In this document: one piece after another, positions 38,886 through 55,372 of the stretch
Position numbering within the stretch: position 1 is the stretch's first letter
Layout of the letters: each line of letters begins with the position of its first letter
Assembly: GCF_036880985.1 (NCBI RefSeq)
Contig: NZ_JBAJNO010000008.1
Span: 2,109,500 to 2,173,499, forward strand
Length of the DNA: 64,000 nt
Direction of reading: 5' to 3'
Source of the DNA: Limibacter armeniacum
Lineage (GTDB): Bacteria > Bacteroidota > Bacteroidia > Cytophagales > Flammeovirgaceae
Notes under the pieces: model-generated
Told to the model about the DNA's origin: nothing
Databases searched by the model: none
What the model saw: the letters and a program-made list of their open reading frames with translations, nothing else
Program-made: the position numbers and the translations under genes

Positions 38886-38899
38886 GCGTTTTTCTTTGA

Positions 38900-39051
38900 T
38901 CGTGTATCCACAAGGCAGGTATTCTGACTTTCCATTTATGTCAAACCTTCCCATCCAAAATAAGACAGTGGTTTTGCATGACACCTTATTCAAGGTTGGA
39001 TTACAGCAGCGGGGACTGTTCCGGATTTACACCGGATTCCCTTTCCTTATG
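38900..39051 (-). promoter_or_regulatory. Cobalamin riboswitch
   Basis: On the minus strand the sequence shows the conserved core in order: AAGGGAATCCGGTGTAAATC, GGAACAGTCCCCGCTGCTG, the ACCACTG box, TGGGAAGGTTTGAC, and the B12 box GTCAGAATACCTGCC near 38930. Spacing and order fit the Bacteroidota form of the aptamer. It ends about 55 bases before the btuF-like start and should lower expression of the uptake genes when adenosylcobalamin is plentiful. Confidence 0.93.
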
Positions 39052-39057
39052 CGAAGG

Positions 39058-39087
39058 CAAATTTGGATAAAAAATAGATAAAACAAA
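39058..39087 (-). promoter_or_regulatory. Promoter of the cobalamin uptake operon
   Basis: TTTG at 39084-39087 and CAAATTTG at 39058-39065 (minus strand), 18 bases apart, match the -33/-7 consensus at all but one position. Transcription would start near 39051, right at the riboswitch. Confidence 0.6.
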
Positions 39088-44811: not shown

Positions 44812-45079
44812 AACAAATATTGGGTTAATACAAAAAAATTATGACAAGCTAGTAGAACTTATGTCAATTATCAATTGTGTCATCAATAAAATAACATGAG
44901 CTTTGGATGGGCATTACCGTTATTTTGTTCCTTTGGATCTTATATATTTAGGATGATAATCCATAACTCACGTTACTTTTTCAAAACAAATTCGAATTAT
45001 TTTCCTTCCAGTATAAAACTACATATAAAGTCTGAACAGGCGGGGAATCCGAGCGTAAACTGCTCGACTTAAAAAGAAG

Positions 45080-46321: not shown

Positions 46322-46462
46322 ATAATGTGAACTATGGGTTATAACGCTCTTTCAGGGATGAAAATATTATTTACATGCCGGTGGATTCAAGTCCATTGCT
46401 GATGTATTGTTTGCCCTGAAAGGGCGAATTAAGCCATGAAACTAATCCATAGTTCACATTAT
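46322..46462. repeat. 141-bp element with 16-bp perfect terminal inverted repeats
   Basis: ATAATGTGAACTATGG (46322-46337) and its exact complement (46447-46462) bound a 141-bp unit. Inside is a second inverted pair, CGCTCTTTCAGGG (46345-46357) and CCCTGAAAGGGCG (about 46416-46428), with one mismatch, and a short GGATTCAAGTCC palindrome. The right end touches the stop codon of the phosphatase gene. It looks like a non-autonomous mobile or dispersed palindromic element. Confidence 0.7.
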
Positions 46463-48014: not shown

Positions 48015-49166
48015 ATGCTTGAAAACTTGGAATCAATCAATTGGGAAGATACTATCAGCTGTTCCATTTCTGAGAGAATGCCTGATTTGATCAAAGAGCT
48101 GACCAGTAAAGACCGTATGGTACGTCAGGATGCTATGTGGGATTTGTATGACAGTATAATTGATCAGGATGAAACAAGGTTGGAGTTGGCAACTTATGTA
48201 GCGCCATTCTTATTTGAACTAATCTTATCTGATAATATAAAAGATAGACAGGAGCTTATCAAGTTACTGGTATGTCTGGCGATACCTAATGATTATATCA
48301 AGGAATTTCTCGGGGTGGGGTTTACAATCGATAAATTTAAATCGGTGTTGCAGGATGCCGAAAACAAGATGTCGGATGATAAACGGAAGCTTTATAAGCA
48401 ACGAGGAGGAGGATTGAAAACAAGTTTAGCTTGTTATGGAATGATTGCAAAAGAGGCGGGGAAGTTTTTACAGTTAACAGAAGACAAAGACAAACTAACA
48501 AGAAGAGCGGCTATTTATGCATTGGCTTGGTTCCCTGATCTTGCGGATAAGTCTGCTCCAATGGTCAACGCTCTCTTGCCATCACTAAAAAGTGAATATA
48601 ATATAGCCAATGCACTCTTGGCAGTTGGTATGCTAAGTAAAGAAGCAAGCGAGGACACAGAACTAGGCGTAATGGATCATTATTTAGGACATAGTTCAGA
48701 TTTGGTAAGGCTGTCTGCGGCAACAGTCCTATTTCAGCACCAATACAGTGAACGTACCTTAAAAATTCTGATTGAAGGCCTGAAGGGAGGTTCGTTCTTA
48801 TTGGAACCTGATTTCTTTTATTACGATGGAGACTTTACAGATTACATTATACAGGTACTGTCTTCCAATAGCAGGTATGAAGTGAAAATTATGATGGCAT
48901 TATGTGAAGCTTTACTAGAAACACCCAAGGACGACATACTTGGTATAATCAGGGCAATTATTGCAATTCTGAAAAAAATAAGGACTACGCCAATCACAGA
49001 AACCAGTCGGGAAGACCTTACTTCAGTTGAAGTTTGGGCATTGGAAAATATACTGGACCTGCTACGCAAAGACGAAGAGGAAGTGTATTACTCATATCAT
49101 AGAAAGCTTTCGGAGGCAGGGATTTACAGTACTGAAGCTGAATTGAAAAGTTATCTTGGTCGGTAA
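48015..49166 (+). CDS. HEAT-repeat-like protein, function unknown
   Basis: A 383-residue soluble, acidic, all-helical protein. Repeating helical pairs such as LIKELTSKDRMVRQDAMWDL, RRAAIYALAWFPDLADKSAP, and DLVRLSAATVLFQHQYSERT suggest an alpha-solenoid of HEAT/PBS type. No catalytic motif or signal peptide. Proteins of this form occur as scaffold or as immunity-like proteins in variable regions; the genes further on (51-53 kb) also look like that, but nothing ties this one to a toxin. Divergent from the phosphatase gene. Confidence 0.6.
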   Translation: MLENLESINWEDTISCSISERMPDLIKELTSKDRMVRQDAMWDLYDSIIDQDETRLELATYVAPFLFELILSDNIKDRQELIKLLVCLAIPNDYIKEFLGVGFTIDKFKSVLQDAENKMSDDKRKLYKQRGGGLKTSLACYGMIAKEAGKFLQLTEDKDKLTRRAAIYALAWFPDLADKSAPMVNALLPSLKSEYNIANALLAVGMLSKEASEDTELGVMDHYLGHSSDLVRLSAATVLFQHQYSERTLKILIEGLKGGSFLLEPDFFYYDGDFTDYIIQVLSSNSRYEVKIMMALCEALLETPKDDILGIIRAIIAILKKIRTTPITETSREDLTSVEVWALENILDLLRKDEEEVYYSYHRKLSEAGIYSTEAELKSYLGR

Positions 49167-49215
49167 TAATCACTTGAACTAGGAGGAAAGATGCATTTCA
49201 AAGGAATTGTGAGAT

Positions 49216-49275
49216 AATGGACTGAAATCCATCGCAACGGCCATTAATTCTTACTTCCTTGACAGAAGAGCGAAT
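49216..49275 (-). repeat. Degenerate relative of the 141-bp element
   Basis: AATGGACTGAAATCCATCG, an AT-rich stretch, then CCTTGACAGAAGAGCG parallel, in order, the minus strand of the 46.3-kb element (AATGGACTTGAATCCACCG, then CCCTGAAAGAGCG). Terminal arms are not recognisable. It lies 69 bases before the HTH gene. Confidence 0.4.
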
Positions 49276-49343
49276 TTGTCATTCGGTAAGCTGTAGGTTA
49301 TTTTTTACAAACAGCTCCATTACCGTATTAATATTTTCAGAAA

Positions 49344-50054
49344 ATGGCTCACCTGAATTATACCCAACGCCAAGAAATTCAAGCACTTCTTGAAACTGGT
49401 ATTTCCAAGTCGGAAATCGCCAGGCGTCTGGGTGTGCATCGGGCTACAGTAAGCAGGGAGATATTACGGAATAGATCCACCGATGGCAAGTATATAGCGT
49501 CACAAGCAGAACAGAAAAAGGAAGTTAGGAGATATGTAGCAAACAAAGCACAGAAAGGTATTTGTAAAGGTATTCATCTTTCACACAAGTATCCCAAGCT
49601 TCTGCGTCAGAAGAATAAAAGGTTTTACCAAAGTCCGATGCTGTCATTTTTTGAGACGCTTCCAAATGCTCAGCATAATGTTCCTGTAATAAGATACCGA
49701 GTGGAGTTAAGAGCAATTAGGTGGGACAGCAGAGGCTATCGCTCACTGAAAAGCAGTACCAGAAGGTTTATTCCATTTACAATCCATAGCCGTATGGCAA
49801 CCAACAAAATTTCGGTAATCAAGCGTAGTTACCGAAAGTGGGACACACATCCATTTGCAGGGCGTAGGCACCAAGTATATTGGCTAGACTACCGACATGA
49901 GTTAATGGCATTTCAATACTACGGAATGAAATTAAAAAGAAGAACAGCCGTAACTCTTCCTAAATTCTTACATCAGCAATTATGGATAAGCAAGCCCGAG
50001 ATTTCCATCAGCGATGCTTGTGAAACGGTATCTAGTCACAAGAAAATTGCCTAG
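49344..50054 (+). CDS. IS30-type helix-turn-helix protein without recognisable transposase catalytic domain
   Basis: A 236-residue basic protein. Residues 1-65 are an IS30-family N-terminal HTH (LNYTQRQEIQALLETGISKS, EIARRLGVHRATVSREILRN, KYIASQAEQKK). IS30 transposases continue with a second HTH and a DDE domain; here, from about residue 75, the sequence (NKRFYQSPMLSFFETLPN, SRRFIPFTIHSRMATNK-like, VYWLDYRHELMAFQYYGMKL) shows none of the usual W-S-P-E-x-I or DDE motifs. The frame is open throughout, so it is not simply frameshifted. It may be a domesticated DNA-binding protein or a chimera. It stands next to a relic of a dispersed repeat. Confidence 0.6.
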   Translation: MAHLNYTQRQEIQALLETGISKSEIARRLGVHRATVSREILRNRSTDGKYIASQAEQKKEVRRYVANKAQKGICKGIHLSHKYPKLLRQKNKRFYQSPMLSFFETLPNAQHNVPVIRYRVELRAIRWDSRGYRSLKSSTRRFIPFTIHSRMATNKISVIKRSYRKWDTHPFAGRRHQVYWLDYRHELMAFQYYGMKLKRRTAVTLPKFLHQQLWISKPEISISDACETVSSHKKIA

Positions 50055-50441
50055 TACAATTCGGTATGCCAAATACTAATAGCAAAAATAAAATGGAGAA
50101 GACCCAGTCGGGTCTTTTTTTATGTCCAATCAAAATAGAAGTGACATACTTAAATTTTGAGTTGAGACCAATCCAAAATCAAGTGTTGCGATTTGGAATT
50201 GGGAGGTGGTAATACACGGAAGAATTACTAAAAATTTAAGTGAAGCAGAAGTTGTAAACGATTAACCCCAAGCCTGTGTTGTAGGGTTAAATAGCCTGAA
50301 ACAGGTTTTGTTCAAAAAGAAAAGCAGTAAAGCATCAGAGAATATTTTCGCTTGTGAGCTGTAGGACAAACAGCGTAGTTGGATTGGTAAATAGGACAGC
50401 ATTTTTAATGCTAACAGATTGACAATTTAAACTTTGAAACT
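50055..50441. other. Spacer after the HTH gene with terminator and weak palindromes
   Basis: After the terminator at 50099-50121 there is an 11-base inverted pair (ACTTAAATTTT at 50148, AAAATTTAAGT at 50231) enclosing an imperfect hairpin (CCAATCCAAAATC / GATTTGGAATTGG). This could be a small MITE relic or chance in AT-rich sequence. No gene seen. Confidence 0.35.
50099..50121 (+). terminator. Terminator after the HTH gene
   Basis: AGACCC / GGGTCT with a 4-base loop and a following run of seven Ts. Confidence 0.8.
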
Positions 50442-50861
50442 ATGGATGCCTTTGAAAACGCAAAAACATTTTTTCACAACTGTGAATCTGCAAAAGGATG
50501 GGAAGCTTGTCAGGAATATGTGTCAGAAAACGCTGAATTTCATGCCCAAAGTGAGCCACTAGCAGAAATGACAAAGGTACAGGAATATGTCAATTGGGTG
50601 GAAGGGTTAAGCAATGTTACCATGCCTGGCTGTTCTTATAAATTGCATGCAGCAGCTTATGACAAAGAAAACAACACCGCAATATTTTATTCCACTTTTA
50701 CAGGTACGCATAAAGGAGAGGGAGGACCAACTCCACCTACCGGTAAGACAACCAATACACATTATGTTTATGCCTTAAAGATGAATGATGAAGGCAAAGT
50801 GGAGAGCATGACTAAAATTTGGAATTCCACTTGGGCAATGCGTGAGCTGGGTTGGATATAG
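50442..50861 (+). CDS. SnoaL-like / NTF2-fold protein
   Basis: A 139-residue cytoplasmic protein of the NTF2-like superfamily. Helix 1-2 FENAKTFFHNCESAKGWEAC, then EYVSENAEFHAQSEPLAEMT, and late strands NTAIFYSTFTGTHKGEGGPT and THYVYALKMNDEGKVESMTK give the cone-shaped pocket order; the C-terminal KIWNSTWAMRELGW fits the SnoaL-like group. Members include cyclases, isomerases and many proteins with no known substrate. It is a single gene with its own terminator. Confidence 0.72.
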   Translation: MDAFENAKTFFHNCESAKGWEACQEYVSENAEFHAQSEPLAEMTKVQEYVNWVEGLSNVTMPGCSYKLHAAAYDKENNTAIFYSTFTGTHKGEGGPTPPTGKTTNTHYVYALKMNDEGKVESMTKIWNSTWAMRELGWI

Positions 50862-50900
50862 CTAACTGCAAACGTAGCATTTTACTTTTCTGAAAATTAT

Positions 50901-50928
50901 AAAAAGACCCCAACAGGTCTTTTTTTTT
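50901..50928 (+). terminator. Terminator of the SnoaL-like gene
   Basis: AAAGACC / GGTCTTT with a 6-base loop, then a run of eight or more Ts. Confidence 0.85.
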
Positions 50929-51047
50929 ATGGTAATGGCTGTAAGTTGGAAGTAATAAGATGGAGAGAGGAACAAAAACTTATTTTTTGATAGGGGAAAT
51001 AAAATGTATTATTCGGAGTAAATAAAACATTTTTTGATTGAATAGAG

Positions 51048-51743
51048 ATGGGAACAATTAAAAAGCATAGTTTTTTAGACTTGAAGATTGGTGCTGTAGG
51101 GGAATATGCAATGGTTATCGATCTAACTGAGTTAGACAAATGGAGAGGATTGGGTTGGCTGACTTATCAGGAGGTTAATTTGCCTGATGGAGATGAGGAG
51201 GCATTTTTAGTATATGGTGATCTGGATAAAGAATTACAGACATTGGTATTTAATAGCCCTCCCTTACTGAAAGATATCTCCCAAAATGAAATTATTGGAA
51301 AGAAAGTCTTGGATATTACAACTCACTTAGGAACTTATGGAATGGGAGGTGCTGGATTTTTTGGGATGCTCTTGGATAATTTTGAATACTTGACATATGC
51401 AGTTTGGGGAGCTGGTGATTATGTGATTATTAATGATAGAATAGTTGAATGCAACCCTGAATACTATCATAAAAGTAGACCTTGGATATCAGACTATGGT
51501 GATAATCTTTCATGGGATGAACTTACAGAATATATCAAGGGAGGAATTATCAAATCGTATTTAATAAAGGATGATACCTGTGAAATAGTAGTCGAAAAAA
51601 GTACTGAAGAGATTAAGGTTGAGTTTGTTAGAAATGATAAAAGGTTACCAAGGAGTAGAGGTAGAAAGCGAAATGCATATAAAAAGGGTCAAATAGCTGA
51701 TTATATATTATTTCAACATGAAGATGCAGTATTAGTTGTTTGA
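51048..51743 (+). CDS. Hypothetical protein of a small-orphan-gene block
   Basis: A 231-residue soluble protein, not recognised. It starts MGTIKKHSFLDLKIGAVGEY and has Gly-rich central segments (GTYGMGGAGFFGMLLDNFEY, AVWGAGDYVIINDRIVECNP) and a basic stretch (RLPRSRGRKRNAYKKGQ) near the C-terminus. No signal peptide, helix or known catalytic motif. It is the first of three same-strand genes (51.0-52.9 kb) of similar kind and AT-rich composition. Such runs of unrelated small soluble proteins often are immunity or orphan-immunity genes of contact-dependent toxins, but no toxin is in the window. Confidence 0.55.
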   Translation: MGTIKKHSFLDLKIGAVGEYAMVIDLTELDKWRGLGWLTYQEVNLPDGDEEAFLVYGDLDKELQTLVFNSPPLLKDISQNEIIGKKVLDITTHLGTYGMGGAGFFGMLLDNFEYLTYAVWGAGDYVIINDRIVECNPEYYHKSRPWISDYGDNLSWDELTEYIKGGIIKSYLIKDDTCEIVVEKSTEEIKVEFVRNDKRLPRSRGRKRNAYKKGQIADYILFQHEDAVLVV

Positions 51744-51772
51744 TATGGTTAAGCATACTTCAGAAGCCCCAC

Positions 51773-51806
51773 TAGTCGTAGGTTTATCGAAGCGATCCTA
51801 CGACTA
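51773..51806 (+). terminator. Hairpin between the first two orphan genes
   Basis: Perfect 10-bp stem TAGTCGTAGG / CCTACGACTA with a 14-base loop containing TTATCGAAGCGA; no strong T-run, so termination is weak. It resembles the hairpin at 52976 in loop and layout. Confidence 0.5.
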
Positions 51807-51829
51807 ATATTGTATCTAGTACTAAAATA

Positions 51830-52165
51830 ATGAGTGAAATGACTGAAGATAATTTTAAAAAAATAGTGATTGGAATAAGTGCTTCGGATACTTTTGAAAA
51901 TACAGAAAATTGGTTGGCTCGTGGATTAAATCCTTCTGACCAAACTGTGATTGCAATTCTAAGAAACTCTACAAATGACTTTCTTGAAAAGCTTGAAAAG
52001 ATATATTACACCAGTGAGTCTTCTGAAACAAAGCTAAAACAAGTTTCAGACATTGTTGATGAGCTGTCGTGGGAGGAGCTTGATACAGAAGAAAAAGAGT
52101 TTATGGCAGAAACGCTGGCTCCTGCAATTGAAGCAGCAGGATTTGATCCTTGGGCTATATTTTAA
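51830..52165 (+). CDS. Small acidic hypothetical protein
   Basis: A 111-residue acidic protein, all-helical by composition: GISASDTFENTENWLARGLN, FLEKLEKIYYTSESSETKLK, then EELDTEEKEFMAETLAPAIE and a short DPWAIF end. Low pI, small size and gene context fit an immunity-type protein or antitoxin, but the family is not recognised. Its start follows the stop of the previous gene by 86 bases, with a hairpin in between. Confidence 0.55.
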   Translation: MSEMTEDNFKKIVIGISASDTFENTENWLARGLNPSDQTVIAILRNSTNDFLEKLEKIYYTSESSETKLKQVSDIVDELSWEELDTEEKEFMAETLAPAIEAAGFDPWAIF

Positions 52166-52244
52166 CTTTAGACTATGAAGACAAGAGAAATAGTGAGAAT
52201 TTACCCAATTGAGAGGGGGGGACTGTTGAGCTAACAATGAAAAA

Positions 52245-52928
52245 ATGCGTAATAATAATAAAGTTAGAATATATCCTGTGATTGAAATGAGTCCTTGGCA
52301 AATAGATGGAGGGGAAGATATTGAAATTAGAGAAGGACAAGACTTTTCCGAGTTTGCAATAGAGATATTTAAAAAGAATGGGATTGAGAATATTGAACAG
52401 CTAGATCCATATGGTTATTGTTCCATTAAGGTTTCAGACATTAGTGATAATGATTTGAAAATTTTTATTGATAAGGAAGTTAGTGATGCAGAAATTCCCG
52501 AGAATGGAATTGAAGCCGTTGGTCCATTCAGTGGAGGTTTAGTAATTGTAGTAAATGACCAAGTAGTACATCATCAATGTTGTGGAGATATCTCGGATTA
52601 TAAAAATTGGAAGACATTTCTTGAGGAATCACCTGAAGATTGGAGTCAGATTTGGATAGGGCATCCATGGTTGTATGGTAGGGTTCGAAAAAATAATGTT
52701 GAATTGTCTGATTATATTGAACACACAGGGCGTCTAGAGAAAGATTTGCCTGTCCATCTACACGTTGATAAAGCAGAATTTGAATTACAGTTCAATTTAG
52801 CAATAGAGGAATTGTTAGCATTCAAAAAACGAATATATATGGTTTTAAAATCAGAAATGAAGGGAGTTGCAAAAGAAGTTTCAGAATTATTAATAGAAGG
52901 TGATGGTGACCCTAACAACCCTGTATGA
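52245..52928 (+). CDS. Hypothetical immunity-like protein
   Basis: A 227-residue soluble protein with a recognisable shape: an N-terminal strand region (RIYPVIEMSPWQIDGGEDIE), a GGLVIVVNDQVVHHQCCGDI segment with a Cys-Cys pair, then SDYKNWKTFLEESPEDWSQI and WIGHPWLYGRV, and a helical C-terminus. Similar proteins with a CCGD-x-x-x-x-x-W stretch occur in bacterial toxin-immunity neighbourhoods; I cannot name the family. It is the last of the three-gene run and is followed by a terminator. Confidence 0.58.
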   Translation: MRNNNKVRIYPVIEMSPWQIDGGEDIEIREGQDFSEFAIEIFKKNGIENIEQLDPYGYCSIKVSDISDNDLKIFIDKEVSDAEIPENGIEAVGPFSGGLVIVVNDQVVHHQCCGDISDYKNWKTFLEESPEDWSQIWIGHPWLYGRVRKNNVELSDYIEHTGRLEKDLPVHLHVDKAEFELQFNLAIEELLAFKKRIYMVLKSEMKGVAKEVSELLIEGDGDPNNPV

Positions 52929-53372
52929 GGTAAGTTAAAATGTGTATTTTATAAATATTTGTAATGGGGTATGCTAGTTCAAGAATTAGCGAAGCGGTTC
53001 TTGGACTTTTTTTGTATAAAGCAAATAGCTTTAACTATAAACTTATGAAGATCACCCTAAACTAGATGTACTGAAAGTATCGCTTCAATAGAGCTGCATT
53101 CTGCATTGCTTTGTAGGAGCTGTATCTTTTTTTTTACCAAAAAAATTACAAGCCTAAAAATAATAAGACCTTGTCATTGTATCTCTTGTACGATGTTGTG
53201 GTGTTTATTTTTCTAATTACAGATCATTATTTTTTTACTTTTCTTATCTAGAATTACATCAGATATACTGTTTGTGAATGGTTTTTTGAATCTATATTTA
53301 TGGGTGTTGCGTTAAGTGAATCACATACCTTTTATGAAAAATGATTAATCACTTAAAGCAAACTAAAAGTAT
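52929..53372. other. Spacer after the orphan-gene run
   Basis: About 440 AT-rich bases. Besides the hairpin at 52976 I see no gene or clear promoter box. Confidence 0.5.
52976..53014 (+). terminator. Terminator of the orphan-gene run
   Basis: AGTTCAAGAA / TTCTTGGACT stem (one G-U) with a 12-base loop TTAGCGAAGCGG-like and a run of seven Ts after it. Confidence 0.82.
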
Positions 53373-53858
53373 ATGAAAAAGTATACTGATTATCTGAACC
53401 CAGCAGAACAACTATCTAATTTTTCAAGTTTATCAGCTTTTCTGGCAGTAGTACAGGAAAGAGATTTGAAAAGACAGGAGATTGAAAATGATTTAGCCAA
53501 CCTAAACTTTGAAGACAATAAGGACAGGGATGTGGAAAGGAAATCACAAAGAGCGATTGATGATCTTTCCCGTCAGATTACATCTATTGACGCAGCGCTT
53601 GCCACTGAAACGGATGATGAAGAAATCAGGGCGCTGAATATCAAGAAGCGTGTACTGGAAGGTACATATGAGAAGAAACAATACGATTTGGAGGTAAGGC
53701 GTAGAAAAGAATTCAAGGAAGAGCAAGTAAAGCTTGACCTTGAAAATAAATTGGAAAACCTAAATGAGCTGATGGTAGCAATGTGTACAGAGTTTTCTAA
53801 TGGAACAATAGGAACTGGAACTGTTACCTATAATGGAGTAGATTATACTGCTTCATAA
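53373..53858 (+). CDS. Coiled-coil hypothetical protein
   Basis: A 161-residue, highly charged soluble protein. Residues about 25-130 are a long coiled coil (ERDLKRQEIENDLANLNFED, RRRKEFKEEQVKLDLENKLE). The C-terminal tail changes character to small residues (NGTIGTGTVTYNGVDYTAS). Nothing marks a known family. It has its own terminator and a long upstream spacer, so it is probably a single transcription unit. Confidence 0.6.
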   Translation: MKKYTDYLNPAEQLSNFSSLSAFLAVVQERDLKRQEIENDLANLNFEDNKDRDVERKSQRAIDDLSRQITSIDAALATETDDEEIRALNIKKRVLEGTYEKKQYDLEVRRRKEFKEEQVKLDLENKLENLNELMVAMCTEFSNGTIGTGTVTYNGVDYTAS

Positions 53859-53882
53859 TTTTTGACCTAAAGGTATGTACTG

Positions 53883-53915
53883 AAAAGGGAACGATTTTGA
53901 TTGTTCCCTTTTTTA
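53883..53915 (+). terminator. Terminator of the coiled-coil gene
   Basis: AAAAGGGAAC / GTTCCCTTTT with a 10-base loop, then more Ts. Confidence 0.85.
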
Positions 53916-54040
53916 TTTTCGATTATTGATATGATTATATATACGATTTTTGTTGTCTATAATTATTTATTAAAAGAATATGATGCGTTAAATAAATAAA
54001 GTTCAGTTCAGTATATTGAGATGTTTTTAACTTAAAATAA

Positions 54041-54664
54041 ATGCATATGTGGAAGACATTGTTTGGTAAAAAGAAAACTGACAAGGAAATAGAGAAAATG
54101 AAGGAACAGTCAGAGAGTGGTGATTATAAATTCTATCCCATTCTGAAGCCAGGTGACTGGGTAGGTATTCAGGCAGGAGCATTAAAGCAGACCCTGATCG
54201 GAACACAGGAAGAACCTCAGGTTGTAGTTGGGTTCGGATATGACACGCCTGAAAACTTTATTTTCTTAACGCATCAGGATCTGGAGAAAATGGATGGTAA
54301 CCAGATTTTAAACGATGCCTATCAGAATTTGGAAGATTTTAAAACCGAATTTGAGCCAGTGGGTTCATTGGATAATAAGGTTTTAACCTCAAGTGGTTTG
54401 GATTTTTCAAGTGAAAGAATTCTTTCAAAGAACCATATGCTTGAGGCACATAAAATGTTGGATGCAGAGGAATTACTGGTATCTATTGCTAGAAGAAGGT
54501 GTATGATGGTGACTTCAAGAGCTGCTGACGATGAGCTGTTGAATACGTTTATTATGCTACATAATGAAACATGGAATGATGATAGCTATGGCAATGCACC
54601 AATTGCTAATATGTTGTTTGTGGTAAAAGAAGGAGATATTGTTGGCTCTATTCCATTGCAGTAA
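54041..54664 (+). CDS. Hypothetical soluble protein
   Basis: A 207-residue cytoplasmic protein starting MHMWKTLFGKKKTDKEIEKM (or at the ATG two codons on). A basic N-terminal helix precedes an alpha/beta body (KPGDWVGIQAGALKQTLIGT, VVVGFGYDTPENFIFLTHQD, AEELLVSIARRRCMMVTSRA). I do not recognise the family. The next gene begins 36 bases later on the same strand, so the two are likely co-transcribed. Confidence 0.55.
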   Translation: MHMWKTLFGKKKTDKEIEKMKEQSESGDYKFYPILKPGDWVGIQAGALKQTLIGTQEEPQVVVGFGYDTPENFIFLTHQDLEKMDGNQILNDAYQNLEDFKTEFEPVGSLDNKVLTSSGLDFSSERILSKNHMLEAHKMLDAEELLVSIARRRCMMVTSRAADDELLNTFIMLHNETWNDDSYGNAPIANMLFVVKEGDIVGSIPLQ

Positions 54665-54700
54665 TTAGTGCTTGCGTTTAGATTAAAATTTTTTTACACA

Positions 54701-55372
54701 ATGAAAAGGATTTCAATTTTTTGTGCCATTCTATTTTTTATGGTTGGCTGTAATACACAGAAAGATAAACAATCAAACAATGATGATCATATCCCTGATA
54801 GCTTGGTTGAAGTACAGGCTTTATTGGATAGTGTCCATGCCGAAGATCATAAATATCGAAATGGTCTGGGAAGTTTGATTGAAGAACACGGATGGAATTC
54901 TGAGGAAGTGCAATCACAGTTTAAGAAAATGAGTGAAACGGATTCCAGTAACCTTATTCTGGTTGAGGGAATTTTAGCGAAACATGGTTGGTTAGGAGGT
55001 TCATCAAGTTCTACTTTATTTCTTGTAATTCAGCATGCTGATCAGGCTACTCAGGAGAAATACCTTCCTGTAATGAGACAGGCTGTTAATGAGGGAAAAG
55101 CAAAGGCGCAAAGTTTAGCGCTTTTGGAAGATAGAATTCTATTGGGAAGAGGAGAGATGCAGATTTATGGCAGCCAAATCTTGACGGATTCTTCAGGTAA
55201 TAGTTATGTTCGTCCATTGATTGAGCCTGAAAAAGTGAATGAAAGAAGGGCCGAAGTTGGTCTGTTGCCAATTGAAGAATATGTGTCACAGTGGGGGATT
55301 GAATGGGATGTAGAAGCATATAAAAAGCAATTGCCCAAGAGACTTGAAGAATTGAAAGCGCAAATTAAGTAA
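54701..55372 (+). CDS. DUF6624-like lipoprotein
   Basis: A 223-residue lipoprotein begun at MKRISIFCAILFFMVGC (Cys17); eleven codons upstream in a GTG-led frame are ignored. After a Ser/Asn-rich linker the mature part has the DUF6624 order: NLILVEGILAKHGWLGGSSS, STLFLVIQHADQATQEKYLP, ALLEDRILLGRGEMQIYGSQ, and a C-terminal VNERRAEVGLLPIEEYVSQW. The family has no known activity. It occurs often in variable or immunity-like regions of Bacteroidota. Confidence 0.7.
   Translation: MKRISIFCAILFFMVGCNTQKDKQSNNDDHIPDSLVEVQALLDSVHAEDHKYRNGLGSLIEEHGWNSEEVQSQFKKMSETDSSNLILVEGILAKHGWLGGSSSSTLFLVIQHADQATQEKYLPVMRQAVNEGKAKAQSLALLEDRILLGRGEMQIYGSQILTDSSGNSYVRPLIEPEKVNERRAEVGLLPIEEYVSQWGIEWDVEAYKKQLPKRLEELKAQIK

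Follow-up and report, generated by a model that had tools for sequence, protein, structure and literature searches.

The gene at 49344-50054 in the 64-kb window (the whole stretch of Limibacter armeniacum DNA that was analyzed) is best explained, tentatively, as a copy of a two-gene module that multiplies in L. armeniacum and its relative Flammeovirga, with a REPtron-like layout and no RAYT. We observed a family of proteins with an IS30-type helix-turn-helix (HTH) head, purifying selection on those of their bodies that could be measured, near-identical copies of such genes elsewhere, the closeness of these genes to a dispersed repeat (R1) and a neighboring partner gene. How dispersed hairpin repeats spread when they have no known cognate transposase is an open question. 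A large, lineage-specific family that lies beside repeats, with a constant head and a changing body, offers a direct experimental handle on the spread or control of such repeats. The features of the window are listed in Table 1.

Table 1. Coordinates of features in the 64-kb window.
Feature	Position	Strand	Evidence or remarks
Cobalamin riboswitch	38897-39078	-	78.9 bits
Degraded second R1 copy, intact right arm at 44957-44975	44859-44975	+	30.7 bits, E 3e-4 in the window; exact arm match
Full R1 repeat, 139 bp, terminal inverted repeats TAATGTGAACTATGGRTTA	46323-46461	+	118.3 bits; arm pair; DNA fold z -5.9
Relic hairpin module of the repeat	49213-49235	+	20/23 bases to consensus; 0/100 shuffles
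HTH_38 protein gene	49344-50054	+	236 aa; body type A
IS30-like DNA-binding head, residues 1-70	49344-49553	+	HTH_38 at residues 3-43; AlphaFold; hhalign
Basic body without recognized family, residues 71-236	49554-50051	+	Alignment with L002 and L003; net charge
Terminator-like hairpin and T run, 3' of the HTH_38 gene	50099-50122	+	Sequence; also in repeat listing
Partner-family protein, 161 aa, acidic, coiled-coil-like	53373-53858	+	C-terminus GTVTYNGVDYTAS; net charge -9

The window gene encodes a real open reading frame of 236 amino acids with an IS30-transposase-like HTH_38 head and a basic body. This bears out the sequence-only reading, which had described an IS30-like head on an unrelated basic body. 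Residues 3-43 match Pfam HTH_38 with an E-value of 5e-11, and hhalign aligned the full protein with IS30-type proteins over residues 3-102. The PHROG transposase match is limited to residues 2-75. Structure prediction served the head and not the body: AlphaFold gave pLDDT values of 78-95 (in blocks of ten residues) over residues 1-70, whereas the values fall below 50 from residue 74 on and provide no confident model of the body. The structure models of HTH proteins likewise contained modeled heads and no modeled bodies. From residue 67 on the window protein has a net charge of +26. None of the 25 of 32 Pfam matches listed (E up to 1) names a family for the body, and neither do the 16 NCBIfam matches shown; both sets are centered on the head. 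A sequence search of the PDB gave helix-turn-helix matches or matches at chance level.

That the body might be a truncated IS30 catalytic domain would have spoken against the earlier reading. In hhalign body A reached a probability of 0.15% against nine IS30-type proteins, with no alignment to the catalytic domain, and the best probability among the 12 of 19 body groups tested against IS30 catalytic domains was 0.34%. A truncated IS30 was rejected because the tested bodies gave no such alignment. A frameshifted IS30 domain was also rejected, since the two other forward frames of the window gene are full of stops.

Body A is common to two further genes that we found (L002 and L003), both from the same genome and with identities of 58 and 54%; these are the homologues with the same body for which the sequence-only reading had suggested a search. 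The alignment of the three sequences has conserved stretches at IHL-HKYPKL, RVELR--R---RGYR and NKISVIKR-YRK---HPF-GR-H---W-DYR---AFQYYG. Between the window gene and L002 the differences in the body favor third codon positions (NG86 w 0.15). In a set of 58 genomes that contained its own, matches outside its own genome end by query residue 127, and the one reaching that far is 26% identical. In 395 genomes drawn from the class (own included) seven had a match, and the other six cover residues 1-68 only. The same body was absent from viral contigs.

The window gene lies amid small genes without a known family (51048, 51830, 52245 and 54041, in the part of the window from 48015 to 55372). Its neighbors also include genes for a HEAT-repeat protein (48015), a SnoaL-like protein (50442) and a DUF6624 protein (54668). 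This run of genes at 48015-55372 may be similar to the immunity-gene arrays of polymorphic toxins.

The window protein matches 31 places in its own genome, and these are the same 31 that pass the HTH_38 cut-off. We compared the bodies of 29 of these genes, leaving out L082 and L084, which are short or broken; from other genomes we left out L058, L060 and L071 (short or truncated frames) and L073, which is full-length and IS30-like. The 29 bodies and those from Flammeovirga form about eight types, with no link above 80% probability in the profile comparison: A; B; C with C2-C4; D; E; F with F2; G with the Flammeovirga bodies; and H. The recognition helix, GVHRSTVSRE and close variants, is nearly constant in the 29 proteins, whatever the body. 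Differences within a type are mostly at third codon positions. Purifying selection is evident from the NG86 values for the bodies, which were 0.15-0.42. Such values were obtained for 8 of 19 pairs, three of the eight coming from the near-identical trio L005-L007; the other 11 pairs were saturated. The seven bodies for which charge was computed are net basic, from +14 to +26. In 15 proteins of the Flammeovirga/G type only L85, R89, W94 and D97 are invariant outside the head.

Three members, L005, L006 and L007, are near-identical copies that lie at different sites, with gene and repeat included. The sequence-only reading had suggested a domesticated factor. This is at odds with the 31 diverging copies, some of them near-identical at different sites, which have the look of a multiplying module. 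A search for a common operator upstream of the HTH genes brought out only pieces of R1 and A/T-rich words. Among the top-ranked papers listed, in a library with few subscription journals, we found nothing in print on the HTH family. Twenty of the 29 proteins end in alanine, often as IA, AA or VA, despite their differing bodies, and many Flammeovirga members likewise end in KVA or RRA. This alanine C-terminus could be a degradation tag or a docking end.

The repeat at 46.3 kb noted in the sequence-only reading is real; it scores 118 bits with a model of R1 that was built from 14 copies of this genome, this copy included, and it folds as a long hairpin (z -5.9). The same reading had placed a degenerate copy of the inner part of this repeat before the window gene, which was correct as to the kind of feature and claimed too much of its length. 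When up to 3 mismatches are allowed, the consensus hairpin module GACAATGGACTAAAGTCCATCGC, derived from other repeat copies, matches the 64-kb window at one place, 49213-49235 (+), and none of 100 shuffled windows had a match. This 23-bp module ends 109 bases before the ATG of the window gene. The remaining extent of the relic is weak: the whole-repeat covariance model gave only 12.4 bits over 49170-49305 (E 0.052 in 1.4 kb), Rfam gave no convincing match at the relic stretch before the gene, and its folding was not unusual (z -1.0 and -0.2).

The search of the genome with the R1 model listed 108 matches with an E-value of 1 or less. Merging those of 1e-3 or less leaves at least 55 sites, a lower bound because 150 of 3135 candidates were scored. 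The 19-bp arms of R1 (TAAYRTGARYTATGGATTA, up to 2 mismatches) occur at 86 sites, compared with 3 for the reversed pattern, and form 19 inverted pairs spaced 123-230 bp apart. A flank string of at least 6 bp is shared in 11 of 20 R1 elements vs 5.6% of mismatched pairs, in a comparison that let offsets vary within 3 bp and so leaves the exact length of the target duplication unfixed. The R1 copy in the window is outside these 11; it shares only 4 bp, inside its arms. In their arms and target duplications the R1 elements resemble miniature transposons of the DDE type, whose movement would depend on a transposase.

No parent element whose R1 arms flank its own transposase turned up in a search up to 5 kb that allowed 2 mismatches (pairs 454, 1214, 1448, 1478, 3171 and 5008 bp apart were inspected). 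The pairs 454, 1214 and 1448 bp apart take in a partner gene together with several R1 elements from a single cluster, and the pairs 3171 and 5008 bp apart enclose ordinary genes, with no transposase seen. One further pair is 525 bp apart. The pair 1478 bp apart encloses a DDE transposase gene (C8:2215764-2217241 in the window's genome), which we read as an insertion sequence inserted into an R1 element; other copies of its group lie away from arms.

Some R1 cores match the orphan RNA motif Acido-Lenti-1 (Rfam RF01687), which was reportedly described in a 2010 survey of structured RNAs. Of five R1-bearing loci given, two have a core above the gathering score of 37 bits (44.9 in L039 and 37.7 in L026), and Rfam did not recognize the R1 copy in the window as RF01687. 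The window's genome has 40 Acido-Lenti-1 matches with E-values of 0.01 or less; among 58 genomes, only this one and one other have a match over the cut-off. The exact core of the repeat was not found in viral contigs. The motif is a table entry in PMC2864571, and in the portion of PMC13298647 that deals with it, its function is described as little known. At L266 (C8:1280000-1291000) three Acido-Lenti-1 matches are spaced by about 1.6 kb within a group of related genes; two of these are 97% identical, and a close relative of the 234-aa protein of this region adjoins a broken HTH gene on C4.

The HTH genes lie close to R1. A site is present within 1 kb of 16 of the 31 genes, while random placement on the same contigs gave 0.55 (maximum 5 in 2000 trials); within 500 bp the count is 12 of 31, against 0.36 (maximum 4, again 2000 trials). 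Homologues of the window gene do occur near the repeat; their never doing so would have spoken against the sequence-only reading. L005-L007 are recent copies of one gene, and collapsing them leaves 14 of 29 genes near a repeat. Arm sites alone lie within 1 kb of 12 of 31 HTH genes vs 2 of 31 DDE_Tnp_1 transposases of the same genome, and one of these two transposases sits between two inverted arms. Rfam sites gave the same direction (9 of 31 vs 1 of 31) in a comparison that used 37 of the 40 sites of this genome. In all these proximity counts the gene ends and site lists were manual entries, with a few of the gene ends approximate. The nearest R1 lies 35-258 bp upstream in seven genes and 24-887 bp downstream in nine; eight of the spacings are 24-258 bp. 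In L005-L007 the repeat 385 bp downstream was copied along with the gene.

With the threshold at E 1e-3, none of the 31 genes is flanked by R1 on both sides within 1 kb and one is within 2 kb, and 15 of the 31 have no R1 within 1 kb. A search of these 15 at full sensitivity added weak upstream matches at two loci, of 37 bits at about 0.7 kb in L078 and of 26.7 bits at about 0.2 kb in L015. At the other loci, that of the window gene included, nothing appeared below E 0.1. The three genes with body A differ in this respect: one is preceded at about 190 bp by an intact repeat, the window gene by the 23-bp relic, and for the third no repeat was found.

Next to this stands the situation in other genomes. 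The HTH genes studied in one Flammeovirga genome (G002) end in a different repeat of about 230-275 bp. Three of its units (L164, L165 and L168) have about 1.45 kb in common, at 90 and 74% identity, consisting of a shortened partner gene, the HTH gene and the repeat; L059 and L066 share 912 bp from the ATG on. L166 begins inside the HTH gene, and L167 consists of nothing but the 3' repeat. L162-L167 all have the right end TATATTGTT, of which L168 has a variant, and copies in G010 end elsewhere than the units of G002. A common 3' end combined with differing 5' ends is reminiscent of one-ended or RNA-copied elements and may be a lead in that direction; deletions could give the same picture. In the Flammeovirga genomes the module is present and Acido-Lenti-1 has no match over the cut-off under strict filters. 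Another genome of the same order (G033) has 75 Acido-Lenti-1 matches and no match to the window protein, which shows that the core can be common where the protein is absent. The ten stretches that we inspected around these cores contain ordinary genes and no recurring partner protein, and in the 15 places shown the cores are mostly inverted pairs that lack TAACGTG arms. At L256-L265 such cores often form inverted pairs with short spacing between ordinary genes, in a REP/BIME-like layout. Gene presence and repeat abundance go together in the window's genome, whereas G033 has abundant cores and no gene, its elements being armless in the places shown. The Flammeovirga module with another repeat and the G033 cores without the protein mean that the pairing of gene and repeat is not fixed. 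The association may concern only the armed version of the repeat, or landing sites.

These data bear on the main rival, that HTH modules and R1 are separate mobile elements which share the same tolerant intergenic places, with R1 and its relics marking safe landing sites. We consider it doubtful. It would account for the G033 cores between ordinary genes, for the arms and target duplications that R1 has of its own, and for the roughly half of the HTH genes with no repeat in range and none with repeats on both sides within 1 kb. It fits poorly with the DDE transposases of the same genome, which are rarely near arms (2 of 31), with the eight spacings of 24-258 bp and with the three near-identical copies that carry gene and repeat together.

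The sequence-only reading had also suggested that the protein might move such repeats. This is unproven: no catalytic site can be named, the body has no confident AlphaFold model and the 75 cores in G033 occur without the protein. The explicit form of this idea, in which the HTH protein is a new recombinase whose catalytic body moves the repeats and its own gene, is unlikely. The position of the HTH genes beside repeats, the common 3' and varying 5' ends of the G002 units and the strong conservation of body A motifs (HPF-GR-H---W-DYR in three sequences) are in line with it. It would have to accommodate about eight body types that cannot be aligned with each other, only four invariant residues outside the head in the 15 proteins of the Flammeovirga/G type, the lack of a modeled body fold and the cores of G033. 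Quite unlikely in our estimate is a new mobile element without a known recombinase, in which the IS30-type head, exchangeable bodies and acidic partner would spread their own unit, with a fixed 3' end and a variable 5' end in Flammeovirga, and adjacent repeats including Acido-Lenti-1. If true, it would give this orphan RNA motif a protein partner.

A host-side regulator, that is an IS30-type head recruited as a repressor or nucleoid protein with upstream R1 copies as its operators or promoters, is improbable. R1 does lie 35-258 bp upstream of seven genes, the recognition helix is constant and the Pfam and NCBIfam matches shown include no catalytic domain. However, 31 copies with fast-changing bodies and near-identical duplicates are atypical of a regulator, and of the 16 genes with a repeat in range 9 have the closest one downstream.

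An acidic partner of about 160-165 aa accompanies many HTH genes in the window's genome, in Flammeovirga and in one further genus. Its gene lies upstream of the HTH gene in 11 of 18 loci examined from Flammeovirga and the further genus and is absent in 5; in the other 2 (L064 and L072) the HTH protein itself has a coiled-coil-like N-terminus. The set includes L061 from the other genus and omits L055, which has 97% DNA identity to L051. The extension in L064 and L072 (1216-2046 in gene orientation) is about 96 residues long and is possibly a fusion with the partner gene. In L066 the partner gene is split by an IS200-like gene. All 12 partner proteins computed have a net charge of -7 to -15, and by eye the partner sequence is coiled-coil-like.

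In the window's genome the partner profile gave 7 strong hits (9 at E up to 1). Six of the 7 are within 1.6 kb of an HTH gene, a figure to be read with the fact that 5 of the 7 were in the query, being near HTH genes; the two independent hits are 1.6 kb and about 12.7 kb away. An iterated search of HTH-gene neighborhoods and the window gave 10 hits, 9 of them within 3.4 kb, in a set that was chosen for nearness. The gene at 53373-53858, about 3.3 kb downstream of the window HTH gene, had a profile E-value of 0.15 in the whole genome, 9.1e-6 when first taken in and 4.8e-43 after iteration. The C-terminus GTVTYNGVDYTAS of its product matches GTVTFDGVDYTAS in the product of C9:1413905-1414408, a partner gene which lies between two R1 elements. 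The cluster around that gene (L132, C9:1413719-1416432) has the order R1, partner gene, R1, R1, HTH gene. As candidates for a phage or defence family the HTH protein and the partner were both rejected: the PHROGs and PADLOC hits shown for the former start in the HTH part, with a few weak ones extending beyond, and Pfam, PHROGs and PADLOC gave only weak matches for the latter.

A pairing of every basic body with an acidic partner of its own, after the manner of a toxin-antitoxin or incompatibility system, would suit the charges, the diversification of the partner in many paralogues and the N-termini of L064 and L072, but it is highly improbable, given that Pfam and PADLOC found no toxin domain in the proteins scanned, that the partner is absent at 5 of the 18 loci and that partner and HTH gene are often apart or in opposite directions in the window's genome.

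For the two-gene module we propose the following scheme. The first gene would encode a DNA-binding protein, the IS30-type helix-turn-helix head on a rapidly changing basic body, and the second the acidic partner, a putative coiled coil. The head may bind a shared site in or beside the repeat, either its arms or its hairpins, and each body may dock its own partner. Head, body and partner together could then aid the spread of module and repeat, or hold both in check. The window copy would be one that adjoins a decayed repeat and has its partner-type gene some 3.3 kb downstream. We favor the module because the 31 HTH_38 matches are the 31 hits of the window protein and the bodies of the measurable pairs are under purifying selection; because repeats lie near 16 of 31 genes compared with 0.55 expected and arm sites near 12 of 31 compared with 2 of 31 transposases; because the recognition helix is nearly constant and partner genes lie beside HTH genes; because the partners are acidic and the bodies basic; and because near-identical units occur at different sites (L005-L007 in the window's genome; L164, L165 and L168 together with L059 and L066 in G002). 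Against the module stand the 15 of 31 genes without R1 within 1 kb, the absence of genes with R1 on both sides within 1 kb (0 of 31), the 5 of 7 strong partner hits that came from the query, the variable pairing of gene and repeat in Flammeovirga and G033, and the likeness of R1 to DDE-type miniature transposons, which would call for a transposase.

Several known systems resemble parts of this picture. R1 is similar to a MITE in its terminal inverted repeats, its 19 arm pairs 123-230 bp apart, its target duplications and its dozens of copies; it differs in that the search up to 5 kb, with 2 mismatches allowed, gave no transposase-bearing parent with such arms. With Acido-Lenti-1 it shares the core of those members that pass the gathering score in two of the five loci, but here the core is wrapped between 19-bp arms and the window copy is not recognized by Rfam. 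The window protein resembles IS30 family transposases in its N-terminal helix-turn-helix head and in the profile alignment over residues 3-102, whereas the HTH proteins here have no recognized DDE catalytic domain.

Y1 transposases as the mover of the repeat were considered and set aside, since a genome-wide search for Y1_Tnp matched two places, neither an HTH gene, which are too few to judge. At L158 (C9:1829402-1831964) a RAYT-like Y1 gene has a cut-off partner gene on one side and an HTH gene on the other, and an arm-like relic is close by. According to the parts of PMC2817692 and PMC3733652 that concern them, a REPtron consists of a Y1 (HUH) transposase gene with two flanking inverted repeats, gene presence goes with repeat abundance, and RAYTs are fast-evolving, multi-copy and located beside dispersed palindromic repeats. 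The window protein is not a RAYT because it has no Y1 domain (Y1_Tnp is absent among the 25 of 32 Pfam matches listed at E up to 1, and no HUH domain is present) and because repeats do not lie on both sides of the genes (0 of 31 within 1 kb, the repeat being on one side only). R1 differs further in its terminal arms and target duplications. The likeness to the REPtron is that of a gene beside a dispersed palindromic repeat which encodes a fast-evolving protein and is present in several copies per genome.
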